A stretch of DNA of 64,000 nt from contig JAFXFM010000004.1 of the NCBI GenBank assembly GCA_017520545.1, positions 1 to 64,000 of the forward strand. The letters are read 5' to 3'. Below the pieces are notes generated by a model. The model worked only from the letters and a program-made list of their open reading frames with translations. It was not told where the DNA came from and made no database searches. This DNA comes from Alistipes sp. Lineage in GTDB: Bacteria; Bacteroidota; Bacteroidia; Bacteroidales; Rikenellaceae. Positions 30,563 through 36,743 of this stretch are shown piece by piece. The stretch's first letter is position 1; the number at the start of each line of letters is the position of its first letter. The position numbers were made by a program, and so were the translations under genes.

Positions 30563-30615
30563 AGTTGTTTTTGTTTTATATTTGTGAAATAAAGTTTGTT
30601 ATCTGTTTAACAGCA

Positions 30616-30623
30616 CAAAAGTA
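30616..30623 (-). promoter_or_regulatory. -7 box TACTTTTG of the aldolase gene
   Basis: Matches TAnnTTTG on the minus strand, with a leader of about 50 nt. Confidence 0.6.
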
Positions 30624-30645
30624 CTATTTTTTTTTGAAAAATAGT

Positions 30646-31953
30646 CTAAAAAAGCAAATTATATACAAAGGTAGTAGCAATCAACAACGGCGCTACCCAT
30701 TTCAGCAGAAATACCAACACCCCAAAGAGAGGCGCACGCAACGTTCCGTCGTTGGTGATTTCTCGCCTAAAAATTGCTCTATCGAGGTACCAGCCTGCAA
30801 AGATGCAGGTCAGCAAACCGCCGAGTGGCATCAGCACATTGGCGGTAAATCTATCGAAGAGGTCGAAGCACTCGTTCGACAACAGACACATTATCGACGC
30901 CACAACCGCAATAGCGGTAGAGACCAATGCACTCATACGTCGCGAGAGATTGTGGTGCTCTTGGAAGTACTCGGTTATAACCTCGTGGAATGTTATGGTT
31001 GAGGTGAGCGCTGCCAAGGCTATAAGTAGGAAGAATATAGCTGACCAGAACTGCGGCATCGACATACTTTTGAAGACAAATGGTAGCGTTTCGAATATAA
31101 GAGTCGGACCCTGCGAAGGCTCCAAGCCCTCAACGCTGAACACTGCCGGAAATATCACCATACCCGACAACACCGCCACAAGGAAGGTCATCATCGATGC
31201 CGACCACGCCGTAGTCGAGAGATTTGTCCCCTTTTTGAAATAGGAGGAGAAGGTTATCAGACAGCCCAAGCCTATCGAGAGCGAGAAGAATGCCTGACCT
31301 ATGGCGCTGATGATAGTCTGCATTGTAAACGCCTTCTTGAAGTCGGGCATAAAGAAAAATTCGTAACCCTCACGCGCTCCGGGCATCATAGCCGAACGCA
31401 CCGCAATAACGAGCAAAATAACGAAAAGTATAGGCATAACCAACTCTGCCGTGCGCTCCAATCCCTTACGCACACCTCGCGCCACTACGATATGCGTAGC
31501 AACAATAAAGAGCATTGTACAGAGCGGCTCCCTCCACGAACTTGTGAAGTTCTCGAAGATGGAGTGAAACTCCTCGCCCGAATAGAGTGTTCCGTCGATT
31601 GATGCCACAAAATAGTAGAGCGACCAACCCGCAACAATGTAGTAGAAACCCGAAATTAGCGTTGATACGATAATACTGTTATAGCCCAACGGCTTCCACC
31701 ACTTCGAGAATTGCGCATAAGCCTTTACCGGACCTTTACGGGTGTAGGTACCTATAGCAAACTCCGACAGCATAACCGGAATACCGAGTATCAGCACGCA
31801 GAGAAAATAGAGCAGTACAAATGCTCCGCCACCATTTTCGCCCGCAATATATGGAAAACGCCAGATGCTACCCAAGCCTATCGCACTGCCTGCCGCAACC
31901 AATACCGCACCTATCTTGCTACCAAAAGAGTCATTATTACCCTGCTCTCCCAT
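30646..31953 (-). CDS. Neurotransmitter:sodium symporter (NSS/SNF) family transporter
   Basis: A 435-aa inner-membrane transporter with about 11-12 hydrophobic segments that uses sodium to import amino acids or related compounds. The first helix has the family sodium/substrate motif VLVAAGSAIGLGSIWRFPYI followed by NGGGAFVLLYFL. Helix 6-8 sequences such as AIGQAFFSLSIGLGCLITF are typical. The length is at the short end for bacterial members, which often have 11 helices. The substrate is not predictable. It lies between fba and folB, in an apparently separate unit. Confidence 0.92.
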   Translation of the reverse strand: MGEQGNNDSFGSKIGAVLVAAGSAIGLGSIWRFPYIAGENGGGAFVLLYFLCVLILGIPVMLSEFAIGTYTRKGPVKAYAQFSKWWKPLGYNSIIVSTLISGFYYIVAGWSLYYFVASIDGTLYSGEEFHSIFENFTSSWREPLCTMLFIVATHIVVARGVRKGLERTAELVMPILFVILLVIAVRSAMMPGAREGYEFFFMPDFKKAFTMQTIISAIGQAFFSLSIGLGCLITFSSYFKKGTNLSTTAWSASMMTFLVAVLSGMVIFPAVFSVEGLEPSQGPTLIFETLPFVFKSMSMPQFWSAIFFLLIALAALTSTITFHEVITEYFQEHHNLSRRMSALVSTAIAVVASIMCLLSNECFDLFDRFTANVLMPLGGLLTCIFAGWYLDRAIFRREITNDGTLRAPLFGVLVFLLKWVAPLLIATTFVYNLLF

Positions 31954-32382: not shown

Positions 32383-33681
32383 CTACTCAACAATTACGAG
32401 ATAGTAATTCTTCTTTCCGCGCTGTACCAAGATGTACTTCTCGGCAATCAAATCCTCGGCAGTAACTACACGCTGAATATCCGTTACCTTCTCCTTGTTG
32501 AGCGACACGCCACCGCCCTGAATCATCTTGCGGCACTCGCCCTTCGATGGAAAAATCGACGACTTCTCGGCACAGAGGTCGATGAACGAGCAACCCAGCT
32601 CCTCTTTCGACACCTTAAACTGCGGCACACCGTCGAACACCTGCAACAAGGTCTGCTCATCGAGGCGATGCAGCGCCTCCGAGGTCGATTGTCCAAAGAG
32701 AATCTGCGAAGCCTCAACTGCCTTCTCGTACTCCTCGCGCGAGTGAATCATCGTGGTAATCTCCTCTGCCAAACGCTTCTGCAAGAGGCGCAAATGCGGA
32801 GCCTCGTCGTGCTCTGCAATCAGCCCCTCGATAGTCGCGCGGTCGAGCAAAGTAAATATCTTAATGTAACGCTTTGCATCGTCGTCGCTTACATTCAACC
32901 AGAACTGATAGAACTTATAAGGCGAAGTGTAGCGGGCATCGAGCCATACGTTACCACTCTCGGTCTTTCCAAACTTCGTACCATCGGCCTTGGTGATGAG
33001 TGGGCAGGTGATTGCAAACGCCTCAGCCTCCGAGCCGAGTTTACGACGAATAAGTTCGGTACCTGTGGTGATGTTACCCCATTGGTCCGCGCCACCCAAC
33101 TGCAACTTACAGTTCATCGTCTGATAGAGGTGCAAGAAGTCGTATCCCTGCAACAACTGATATGTAAACTCGGTGAACGACATACCATCACCCTCGCCAT
33201 TAAAGCGTTTCTTCACCGAATCCTTTGCCATCATATAGTTTACGGTGATGCTCTTGCCAATTTCACGTGCGAAGTCGAGGAACGAGAACTCCTTCATCCA
33301 GTCGTAGTTGTTCACCATAACGGCAGCATTCTCGGCGTCCGAGTCGAAGTCGATAAGGCGAGCCAGCTGAGCCTTGATAGCCTCCTGATTGTGGCGCAGA
33401 GCCTCCTCATTCAAGAGGTTACGCTCCTGCGACTTGCCCGATGGGTCGCCAATCATACCGGTAGCACCTCCAACCAGAGCTATTGGACGGTGTCCGCACA
33501 TCTGCAAGTGTTTCAATATCATTACGCCAACCAAATGACCAATGTGCAACGAGTCTGCCGTAGGGTCAATACCAAGATAAGCGGTTGTCATCTCCTTTGC
33601 GAGTTGCTCCTCGGCTCCCGGCATAATCGTATGAATCATACCGCGCCATTGCAACTCCTCAACAAAATTCTTTCTTCCCAT
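32383..33681 (-). CDS. tyrS: Tyrosyl-tRNA synthetase
   Basis: A 432-aa class I synthetase. The HIGH motif is in [14 protein letters not shown], the tyrosine-site [12 protein letters not shown] lies near 200, the KMSKS equivalent is KFGKTESGN, and an S4-like RNA-binding domain is at the C-terminus ([12 protein letters not shown]). It is flanked by dnaX (32-bp gap) upstream and folB immediately downstream on the same strand. Confidence 0.96.
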
Positions 33682-33713
33682 TTTTATATATTTTTTGTCT
33701 TATTTTTACACTG

Positions 33714-35564
33714 CTACTCAAAATCCATATCAAGCGCCTTCTGCATATAGGCGAGTTCGGGGGCTACCTTGCAAATATGTTCGATACGGTCTTCGAGTTT
33801 GATAGGTTTTAATTTGAAATCCATCTCCTTAATCTCGATGTGCATATCGAGCGAGCCCTTAACCCCTGCAACTTCGGCAATAGTGGTCAAAATATCGTAT
33901 CGTTCGCCCAGAAGTTCATCGCGCAAACCCTCCGACGGCACTGCTAACTTCACCTCATTACCCTCAAATTCGATAGACTCGAATGCCGAGACATAACGAG
34001 GTCTATCCGAACACATTCGCGCTACAATCTGCTCTTTTGCACGACTCATCTTCTCCTCGCTGGCGGGGTCTATAACGATGTGGGCACTCTTTCCCTCCAC
34101 ATCAACCGGATTCGACACCTTATTGAGCAACGAGGTCAAAGAGTCGCCAAGCATCTTCGGTTTTGCCTCAGTTGCAGGCTTTGCTTCGACAGTCGGCTTC
34201 ACTTCGACAGTCGGTGTAGGCTTTGCTACGACTGTCGGTGCAGGTGTAGCCTCGGCAGCCACCTTTGGCTCCGGTTGTTTCTCGACAGCCGACTCAGGTT
34301 TAACGGTCGGCACCTGCTCCGATATTGGTTGAGGAGTTGGCGCAGGTGCTACCGTAGATTGCTCTACCTTTTGTGTCATAACAGGCTGCGGAGCTATTGT
34401 AGCCTGCGGTTTTGGTGCGTTCAAATCGGGCAACGGATAGTTAGCCTCGATGGGAGCGGTCAGTTCATTGTTTTTTTTTTGACCGAGCGTCGAAATTTTC
34501 ATCAACGTAAGTTCGACAAGGAGTCGTTGCGACGATGCCGTACGCAACTTCGAGTCTGCCTCAGTCAGGAGCGATATTGCTCCGAAGAGGAACGCCGGCT
34601 CGCAAACTGCCGCCTGCTGGCGATACTTTTCGAGCAACGAACCTGTATACTCTATCAACTTCACGGCAGGACCCTTCGCCACCAACAAGTCGCGGAAGTG
34701 CTGGTTCAAGCCGCCCATAAAAATCTGTCCCGAAAACCCCTTTGATAAGACCATATCATACTCCAACAGAGCATTCACATAGTCGCCACGAAGAAGCAAA
34801 TCGGTGAAACGGAAGTATGTTTCGTAGTCGAGAACGTTCAATGTTGCCGCCACCGCGTGATACTCCAACTTTGTACCGCAGAACGACACCGCCTTATCGA
34901 ACATCGACAACGCATCGCGCATACCGCCGTCCGCCTTTTGGGCGATAAGGTTGAGCGACTCATCGTCCGCCTCTACGCCCTCACTTTGGGCAATATATCG
35001 GAGATAGCCCACAGCATCCTCCACGCGGATACGGTTGAAGTCGTAAATTTGACAACGCGAGAGAATCGTTGGGATAATTTTATGTTTCTCGGTGGTTGCG
35101 AGGATGAATATAGCGTGCTGCGGTGGCTCCTCCAAGGTTTTCAGAAAGGCATTGAACGCCGCAGACGAAAGCATATGGACCTCATCGATAATGAAGACCG
35201 AGTATTGACCAATTTGCGGAAGCACTCGCACCTGCTCGATAAGGTTGCGGATATCCTCCACCGAGTTGTTCGACGCAGCGTCCAACTCGTGTATATTGAG
35301 TGAGCGATTCTCGTTGAACGAGCGACACGAATCGCACTCATCGCACGCTTCGGCACCTACCGGGTGCTGACAGTTAATCGCCTTGGCAAAGATACGAGCG
35401 CAGGTAGTCTTACCCACTCCACGAGGTCCGCAGAAGAGGTAGGCGTGCGCCAACTGACCACGCTCGATGGCATTCTTCAATGTCGAGGTGATATGATTCT
35501 GTCCCACCACACTTGCGAAGGTGGCAGGGCGATACTTTCGAGCAGATACTATAAACTTCTCCAT
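33714..35564 (-). CDS. dnaX: DNA polymerase III subunit gamma/tau
   Basis: A 616-aa clamp-loader ATPase. Walker A GPRGVGKTT is at 46-54, zinc-module cysteines at 65, 74, 77 and 80, DEVHMLS and the sensor LSRCQIYDF follow. Domain III ends near residue 362. A long Pro/Val/Glu/Lys-rich linker (about 375-470, repeated VEVKPTVEAKP-like units) leads to a C-terminal tau domain. Codons 362-365 (QKKN) lie on ten consecutive A residues; a slip of one base either way meets a stop within 2-4 codons, giving a product of about 366 aa equal to domains I-III. The ATG at 35564 matches the family start MEKFIVSARKYRP. Confidence 0.95.
   Translation of the reverse strand: MEKFIVSARKYRPATFASVVGQNHITSTLKNAIERGQLAHAYLFCGPRGVGKTTCARIFAKAINCQHPVGAEACDECDSCRSFNENRSLNIHELDAASNNSVEDIRNLIEQVRVLPQIGQYSVFIIDEVHMLSSAAFNAFLKTLEEPPQHAIFILATTEKHKIIPTILSRCQIYDFNRIRVEDAVGYLRYIAQSEGVEADDESLNLIAQKADGGMRDALSMFDKAVSFCGTKLEYHAVAATLNVLDYETYFRFTDLLLRGDYVNALLEYDMVLSKGFSGQIFMGGLNQHFRDLLVAKGPAVKLIEYTGSLLEKYRQQAAVCEPAFLFGAISLLTEADSKLRTASSQRLLVELTLMKISTLGQKKNNELTAPIEANYPLPDLNAPKPQATIAPQPVMTQKVEQSTVAPAPTPQPISEQVPTVKPESAVEKQPEPKVAAEATPAPTVVAKPTPTVEVKPTVEAKPATEAKPKMLGDSLTSLLNKVSNPVDVEGKSAHIVIDPASEEKMSRAKEQIVARMCSDRPRYVSAFESIEFEGNEVKLAVPSEGLRDELLGERYDILTTIAEVAGVKGSLDMHIEIKEMDFKLKPIKLEDRIEHICKVAPELAYMQKALDMDFE
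34471..34480 (-). other. A10 slippery homopolymer inside dnaX
   Basis: The coding strand reads C-A10-C in frame as CAA AAA AAA AAC. Adding one A gives AAA CAA TGA. Losing one gives ACA ATG AAC TGA. Both alternatives stop at once, just after domain III. This is the arrangement expected for transcriptional slippage or frameshifting that makes the short gamma subunit. Confidence 0.65.
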
Positions 35565-35572
35565 AATCGGCA

Positions 35573-35580
35573 CAAAGTTA
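35573..35580 (-). promoter_or_regulatory. -7 box TAACTTTG of dnaX
   Basis: Matches TAnnTTTG on the minus strand, 8 nt before the dnaX ATG, so the leader would be very short. Confidence 0.55.
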
Positions 35581-35602
35581 ATAAACTTTGTAGAACATTT
35601 GC

Positions 35603-35627
35603 CATTTTTCCGATAAAATGTCGCCTT
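35603..35627 (-). promoter_or_regulatory. Operator-like 25-bp motif upstream of dnaX
   Basis: Matches 24 of 25 bases with 36756-36780, upstream of the acyltransferase gene in the same orientation. The minus strand has GGCGACATTTTATCGG, a near copy of the palindromic GGCGACATTTTGTCGG. Confidence 0.5.
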
Positions 35628-35648
35628 CGCTCTCTTTTTTTTCTCTTG

Positions 35649-36743
35649 TCAGGCCCTACTGCCGAGTATAAATGCGGTAAATTTAGGGAAAAGGCGCTTC
35701 AACAAGTGAAATAGCCCAACTCCTAAAAGCACTATCACAGCAAAAGAGGCAAAATAGATGACGAAGTACTCCACGTTTGTTGTGGGCTTCAAGAACTTGA
35801 CCGCTACCCTTTGCAACAGCGCCAACGGAATGTAGTGATAGACAAAGATAAAGAAGTAACTTTGACTCAACCAAGCAGGAACTGTCCAACCCTTCGCTTT
35901 AACTATGTGATAAGTGCCATACATCAAAAGTAACGAGCCAATAAGCAGAGCCGACTCGTAGAATAAGACGCCCACTCTGCCACGACGGAAAAATATCGCC
36001 GTAACAGCCAAAACAAACAGTACACCCGCTATCACTATCGCCGCAGGTCGAAACTTCGGAACCTTCACCTTATGCAGAGCAAACCACGCTCCCAACGAGA
36101 AGAAAAAGTAAAATTTAGGTTGCAGCCACACCACCTCCCTCTCAATCGACGGAACGAAAAGCCACAAAGCAAGCATTGTTACATTAAAAATCGCCCCTAC
36201 AACTCTATTTTTCAGTAGCCAGAAGAGCAATGGCGAGAGCACAACCGCAACCATAAGATTGCGAACAAACCACAATGGAGCGTTTATCGGACTCATTGTG
36301 CCATCTACACGCCAAAATGCTTTAACCCAATCGAGTAGCGTATAGTCGCAGACTCTCGTATTATTACCCGAAAACAGTTCAGGTACAATGGTTTGTCCAA
36401 CGAAAAAGAGCAGAATCACCACTCCATTCCAAAAGAGGTACGGAACGAGTATTGAGCCTACTCGGCGTTGCAACTTCTCGCCATACTGTCGCAACGTGAA
36501 CGACTCGATATTTCGAAAAAACAGATAGCCCGATATAAGCAAATAGCAGGGAACTGCCACATTGGCAATAACTCTCGACAAGACAAACGAAGTATTGGCA
36601 AAGCAGGCAACCTCCGCATTGCCCATAACACTATCCATAAATGAGTGGCAAAGTACCACCAGCACTATCAGCGGAAAGCGCAAAAAGGAGAATATTGCCA
36701 ACAGAGCGCTCTCTTCGTTCGATGTAATTCTGCAACTTTTCAT
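35649..36743 (-). CDS. Acyltransferase-3-like integral membrane protein
   Basis: A 364-aa protein with about ten hydrophobic segments. It resembles membrane O-acyltransferases that modify surface polysaccharides: RFPLIVLVVLCHSFMD near the start (the family has R..A...V...H), then FVLSRVIANVAVPCYLLISG, and ALWFVRNLMVAVVLSPLLFW in the middle. The acceptor is unknown. A -7 box is 4 nt before the ATG, and a palindromic motif shared with the dnaX promoter lies just upstream. Confidence 0.82.
   Translation of the reverse strand: MKSCRITSNEESALLAIFSFLRFPLIVLVVLCHSFMDSVMGNAEVACFANTSFVLSRVIANVAVPCYLLISGYLFFRNIESFTLRQYGEKLQRRVGSILVPYLFWNGVVILLFFVGQTIVPELFSGNNTRVCDYTLLDWVKAFWRVDGTMSPINAPLWFVRNLMVAVVLSPLLFWLLKNRVVGAIFNVTMLALWLFVPSIEREVVWLQPKFYFFFSLGAWFALHKVKVPKFRPAAIVIAGVLFVLAVTAIFFRRGRVGVLFYESALLIGSLLLMYGTYHIVKAKGWTVPAWLSQSYFFIFVYHYIPLALLQRVAVKFLKPTTNVEYFVIYFASFAVIVLLGVGLFHLLKRLFPKFTAFILGSRA

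Follow-up and report, generated by a model that had tools for sequence, protein, structure and literature searches.

Our analysis supports the notion that a run of ten adenines in the dnaX gene of this Alistipes sp. is, with good probability, a programmed slip site, at which RNA polymerase would slip and one gene would give both a tau and a gamma-like product. The tract and the stops close behind it are kept in every readable close relative, and therefore one gene very probably makes a short and a long subunit. From these sequence comparisons we infer slippage in this organism, at the level of transcription, and a gamma function for the short product.

The dnaX gene lies at positions 33714..35564, on the minus strand of the window (the whole stretch of 64,000 nucleotides that was analysed). 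It was identified from the ORF list with its translation, from Pfam and from a PDB sequence match; in an alignment of genus proteins it begins at a conserved ATG, and it carries full-length tau in a single ORF of 616 codons (616 aa and 68.0 kDa from an A10 mRNA). The original prediction had placed an A10 tract at codons 362-365 (CAA AAA AAA AAC), and the tract is indeed found there: the plus strand reads T10 at 34471..34480, which is A10 in the minus-strand ORF. Early stops in both other frames and a product of about 366 aa had also been announced, in agreement with what we obtained when length variants of the mRNA were translated in silico. The predicted product of an A11 mRNA is ...QKKKQ-stop, 366 aa and 40.8 kDa, ending at a TGA located on the minus strand at 34465..34467. 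A second TGA (34460..34462, minus strand; both positions were taken from the sequence) would be reached by A9 transcripts, with a predicted product ...QKKTMN-stop of 367 aa, and by A12 transcripts, with one of 368 aa; an A13 mRNA is predicted to regain the tau frame (617 aa). In the mechanism that we propose, RNA polymerase would slip on the A tract and generate mRNAs of varying tract length (A9, A10, A11, A12, A13 and so on). Tau would be translated from those with A10 or A13, and the remaining ones would reach a stop within five codons, yielding a clamp-loader-only, gamma-like protein of 366-368 aa.

The dnaX product belongs to the DnaX clamp-loader family (AAA+ ATPase, DnaX lid, domain III). 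PF13177 and PF22608 (AAA, DNAX lid) match above the curated Pfam cut-off, the best PDB sequence match is 8gj0_B, "DNA polymerase III subunit tau" (E 3.2e-72), and E. coli clamp-loader chains rank first in a Foldseek search with the AF2 model (E 7.9e-20). The tract had been said to lie right after domain III, which is borne out by several observations: the Pfam match to domain III (PF12169) ends at residue 359, with a score of 19.3 bits that is below the curated cut-off of 24.4; residues 4-356 align to solved gamma constructs in the PDB sequence search; and the AF2 model has its final domain III helix at 346-366. Thus, the tract marks the gamma/tau boundary. Upstream of it, residues 1-359 (34488..35564, minus strand) form the gamma core, with clamp-loader domains I-III common to the short and long products. 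The tau-specific part (33714..34470, minus strand) comprises in the AF2 model a long low-confidence linker (residues 366-495, block pLDDT 30-44 over 371-490), followed by a better-ordered C-terminal domain at about residues 500-616 (pLDDT 79-87 over 501-580). This model was built with 24 genus sequences, has a pTM of 0.32, is also low over residues 1-79 and was used for the order/disorder boundary only.

The presence of an A10 tract in dnaX is more than chance. A pattern search of the same 1.93 Mb genome gave three exact occurrences of A10 and 25 A/T runs of at least 9 (22 of them A9), the longest being 10. In a check for ORFs that covered the A10 sites, neither of the other two A10 tracts was located in an ORF of at least 80 aa. 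Among 290 dnaX genes of the phylum, runs of at least nine A occur 0 times in codons 1-345, 229 times in the 60 codons of the junction and five times in the next 150 codons. Within the window, the only other A/T run of at least 9 is a T9 at 30627-30635. It falls within a mechanical ORF of the plus strand (30565-31002) and narrowly misses the minus-strand ORF 30646-31953.

Conservation was examined with the tract defined as at least nine A within 60 codons of residue 346. The genus comprised 180 genomes, of which 171 had a dnaX match and 118 were read at least in part (99 and 19 loci, one per genome). The alignment of relatives proposed with the original prediction revealed the A run in all 117 readable genus genomes (98/98 and 19/19), with lengths from A9 to A12. 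Beyond the genus, the tract is present in 42/51 readable genomes from other genera of the family, 27/52 from other families of the order, 27/28 from other orders of the class and 34/61 from the rest of the phylum; the runs begin in all three codon phases. The remaining genomes (9/51 in the family, 25/52 in the order, 1/28 in the class and 27/61 in the phylum) have no run of at least nine A in the part scanned, and so the site can be lost and is dispensable over longer times. Regarding the sample, many genus genomes are draft metagenome bins, and 4/101 genus genomes are without a full dnaX match. For the phylum, 62 of the 87 matched genomes were fetched and 25/87 left out; 8/38 matched g87 genomes and G101 (partial gene) were also left out. 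G045, three further loci and G376 were dropped, their sequence ending before the tract, and four genomes in which the contig ends soon after it (G016, G131, G105, G467) were counted for the tract and not for the frame.

Another element was observed in the run-less dnaX loci, 40 of 50 of which have a GGGC-(3-4 nt)-GCCC palindrome, in frame and just after domain III (about codons 368-374), a position close to that of the A tract in others. These loci are mostly from Prevotellaceae/Bacteroidaceae (L116, L118-L120, L122, L123, L125-L127, L130-L138, L140-L143, L145-L149, L151-L155, L157, L158, L161, L164, L167, L169-L171). GCAA, GTAA and TTCG are among the loop sequences, and Gly in the palindrome is encoded by GGG in 40/40 loci versus 57/563 elsewhere. 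Both other frames are closed within nine codons in 10/40 loci, versus 13.9% expected, and Rfam returned no relevant match in the 8 palindrome loci searched. The palindrome looks like an RNA- or DNA-level element.

Codon choice at the tract is exclusive throughout the genus. The lack of the run in relatives, or AAG codons in its place, had been named as evidence against a slip site, and the opposite was found: at the lysine codons 363-364, AAA is used in 196 of 196 cases, versus 333 of 1411 Lys codons (24%) elsewhere in domains I-III. Similarly, codon 362 is CAA whenever it encodes Gln (74/74, versus 280/1426 in other places); the further codons seen at this position are AAA, GAA, TCA and CCA, all with A as the third base. 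The flanking amino acids and bases vary across the genus, unlike codons 363-364. The choice of AAA and CAA points to nucleotide-level selection on the tract. One clade of the genus (L064, L076, L081, L060, L028, L034, L061, L073, L017, L063, L025, L024, L058) has A11 with codon 362 AAA and an unchanged frame, as if by base change and not by insertion.

The near out-of-frame stops, whose conservation was also to be checked, are kept as well. Both other frames close within nine codons in 89 of the 90 unsplit genus genes, versus 8.4% at other positions of the same genes, and the plus-one-A frame stops at once in 65 of these 90. The corresponding values are 37/39 in the family (9.4% expected), 17/18 in the order (28.9%), 12/14 in the class (25.6%) and 19/22 in the phylum (20.5%), the enrichment being weaker outside the family.

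Relatives also differ in the genomic frame that holds tau. Among 313 classified genes, 58 have tau outside the genomic zero frame (42/225, 15/70 new loci and 1/18), a rate that is biased upward because the families behind the 15/70 loci were selected for holding a one-fewer-A gene; one genome, G380 (f43), gives two of these loci. These counts are of genomes and not of independent events, since relatives share ancestry. One more A is needed by 44 of the split genes and one fewer (or two more) by 14; the zero frame ends within nine codons past the tract in 58/58, which would yield gamma, and the third frame within 36. With tau out of the genomic frame, a slip at the tract must occur in these relatives, unless the genes are broken or misread. 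Both kinds of split can be found in close company: genus code g153 holds two one-fewer-A and three one-more-A genomes, and in f43 five genomes need one fewer A, three of them sharing GAA AAA AAA AAA TAA, and one needs one more. A genus tree of domains I-III, which predates the reading of G466, requires four changes of state, with one four-species clade fixed in the one-more-A state and three one-fewer-A singletons; G466 later added a fourth such case in the genus. These one-fewer-A cases (G015, G018, G025, G466), singletons beside A10 or A11 relatives, could be assembly errors or fresh mutations.

As a general cause of the splits, sequencing or assembly error was considered and rejected, given the four-species clade in one split phase, the recurrent splits in several families and the split genes found in single-contig genomes (G273, G311, G360). 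Another single-contig genome (G366) has an A14 tract with tau in frame. In one further locus (L311, G158), the dnaX zero frame stops 30 codons into the stretch scanned from residue 346, where the longest A run is 3, which is due either to another recoding signal or to a defective assembly.

Taken together, tract conservation, codon choice, close stops and the toggling of frames in relatives strongly support the functional slip site that had been suggested. RNA polymerase slippage would explain why a long unbroken A run is needed, why both frames have stops, why tau can be in any phase and why the frames toggle. With somewhat less assurance than for the slip site itself, we consider it likely that the clamp-loader gene is frame-agnostic across much of Bacteroidota. 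In such a gene, RNA polymerase slipping on a conserved A9-A14 tract would mix the reading frames, both alternative frames would end immediately, and the genomic phase of tau would thus lose its importance for the cell; the tract would then drift by single bases, and seemingly frameshifted genes would arise and persist.

The main rival, which we consider unlikely, is that the slipping is done by the ribosome and not by RNA polymerase: it would move along the A tract in one direction or the other and stop in the next frame to give gamma. Sliding on iterated AAA or poly(A) is known in E. coli; passages of Koutmou 2015 (PMC4363877) describe forward and backward movement as thought possible, with a robust truncated product at A11. 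Sliding of this sort would work without stimulators and could explain splits of either direction. However, the A10 of the window has only two in-frame AAA codons, and passages on the A9 tract of Thermus dnaX place its slippage at transcription (PMC1088944). A programmed -1 ribosomal frameshift of the E. coli type, at A_AAA_AAA or A_AAA_AAC with stimulators, is very improbable. Any run of at least nine A contains the A_AAA_AAA heptamer whatever its phase, and the equivalent of a -1 shift is what 44 of the 58 split genes need, but the 14 one-fewer-A genes, which RNA polymerase slippage serves, would not be served by it. The A_AAA_AAG slippery heptamer is not in the window dnaX tract, nor was an SD-like sequence (AGGA, GGAG or GAGG in -20..-3) found upstream of it; such a sequence is missing from 95/98 genus genes, being found in 3/98, and occurs in 1/42 family, 4/27 order, 5/27 class and 8/34 phylum genes. 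Bacteroidia ribosomes are reported, in parts of one study, not to recognise SD (PMC9976891). No strong hairpin was apparent downstream: in the genus (49/98 genes folded) structure was in weak excess (mean z -0.98 versus -0.33 for the control), and in the other groups the mean z ranged from -0.18 to -0.49, with family and order controls lower than the test. Rfam gave no relevant family, including none of the frameshift kind, over 33700-35700 at E<=10 and none over 11 loci at E<=1. A promoter and terminator scan of 33600-35800 returned counts near those of shuffles (4 vs 2.3 and 3 vs 2.1).

Equally improbable is ordinary coding, in which a conserved A-rich Lys-Lys-Asn turn would end domain III and slippage would be of no use. 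As this explanation would have it, K363 and K364 do not vary among 24 aligned proteins of the genus, but it is at odds with the exclusive choice of AAA and CAA despite a different usage in the rest of the gene, with the enriched nearby stops of both other frames and with the relatives that have tau out of frame. The least probable explanation, to which we give almost no credit, is a mutable contingency tract, where replication slippage would turn tau on and off by phase variation and split genomes would be off variants or assembly errors. The four one-fewer-A singletons of the genus would fit such a tract, whereas the four-species clade retains one split phase with intact tau ORFs and splits also occur in the single-contig genomes mentioned above. 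Moreover, losing tau should harm the cell.

In the open-access literature (titles, abstract starts and some passages), we found neither a Bacteroidota-wide dnaX slip site nor tau in all three phases. If our reading is true, the long-argued need for gamma would become testable by recoding of the tract, in a phylum whose ribosomes are reported, in parts of one study, not to use SD (PMC9976891). It would also mean that, in a large phylum with gut and environmental members, two clamp-loader subunits of the replicase arise through a stutter of RNA polymerase, and that annotation pipelines may label many such important genes as frameshifted. The three-phase pattern of tau is, in addition, a natural experiment on the slippage efficiency required in the cell.

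Transcriptional slippage on an A9 tract in Thermus thermophilus dnaX is said to have been described by Larsen in 2000. The type of mechanism is already known, from Thermus dnaX and from split dnaX genes with A10 (Antonov 2013). According to passages of two papers (PMC1088944, PMC5009743), experiments in T. thermophilus showed that gamma arises when transcription slips on A9, and both frames have stops there. The window gene is similar in having a single tau ORF, an A tract of 9-10, near stops in both other frames and a short product with a shared N terminus; it differs in that its tract is A10 and lies directly after domain III, and slippage, experimental in Thermus, is here deduced from sequence. 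Antonov 2013 (GeneTack), in passages of the article (PMC3711429), lists 17 split dnaX genes from 12 genera, all described as -1 at the DNA level and 9 of them with A10, and proposes transcriptional slippage; the split species named in those passages are from Chlorobium and Chloroherpeton only. An A tract in dnaX is common to that set and ours, and the split relatives of the window gene match its type, in which tau needs a slip, as far as those passages go. In contrast, the window gene is unsplit, with gamma and tau in one ORF, and unlike the -1 set in those passages, 14 genes here require a change in the other direction, and within genera split forms alternate with unsplit ones. The outcome is the same as with the -1 programmed ribosomal frameshift of E. 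coli dnaX, namely gamma from the tau gene, but the window gene has no AAG in its slippery site, no SD-like stimulator and no apparent strong hairpin, and its relatives show both directions. The insect endosymbiont Blochmannia also has a poly-A tract in dnaX, a frameshift-correcting homopolymer on which slippage is proposed to restore tau; in the passages of that study (PMC3017870) the tract lies in the tau-only region, downstream of the ribosomal slip site, whereas the window tract is at the gamma/tau boundary with stops close behind. Thus, on our analysis, the window gene belongs with Thermus dnaX, and its split relatives are similar to the genes of the Antonov set.
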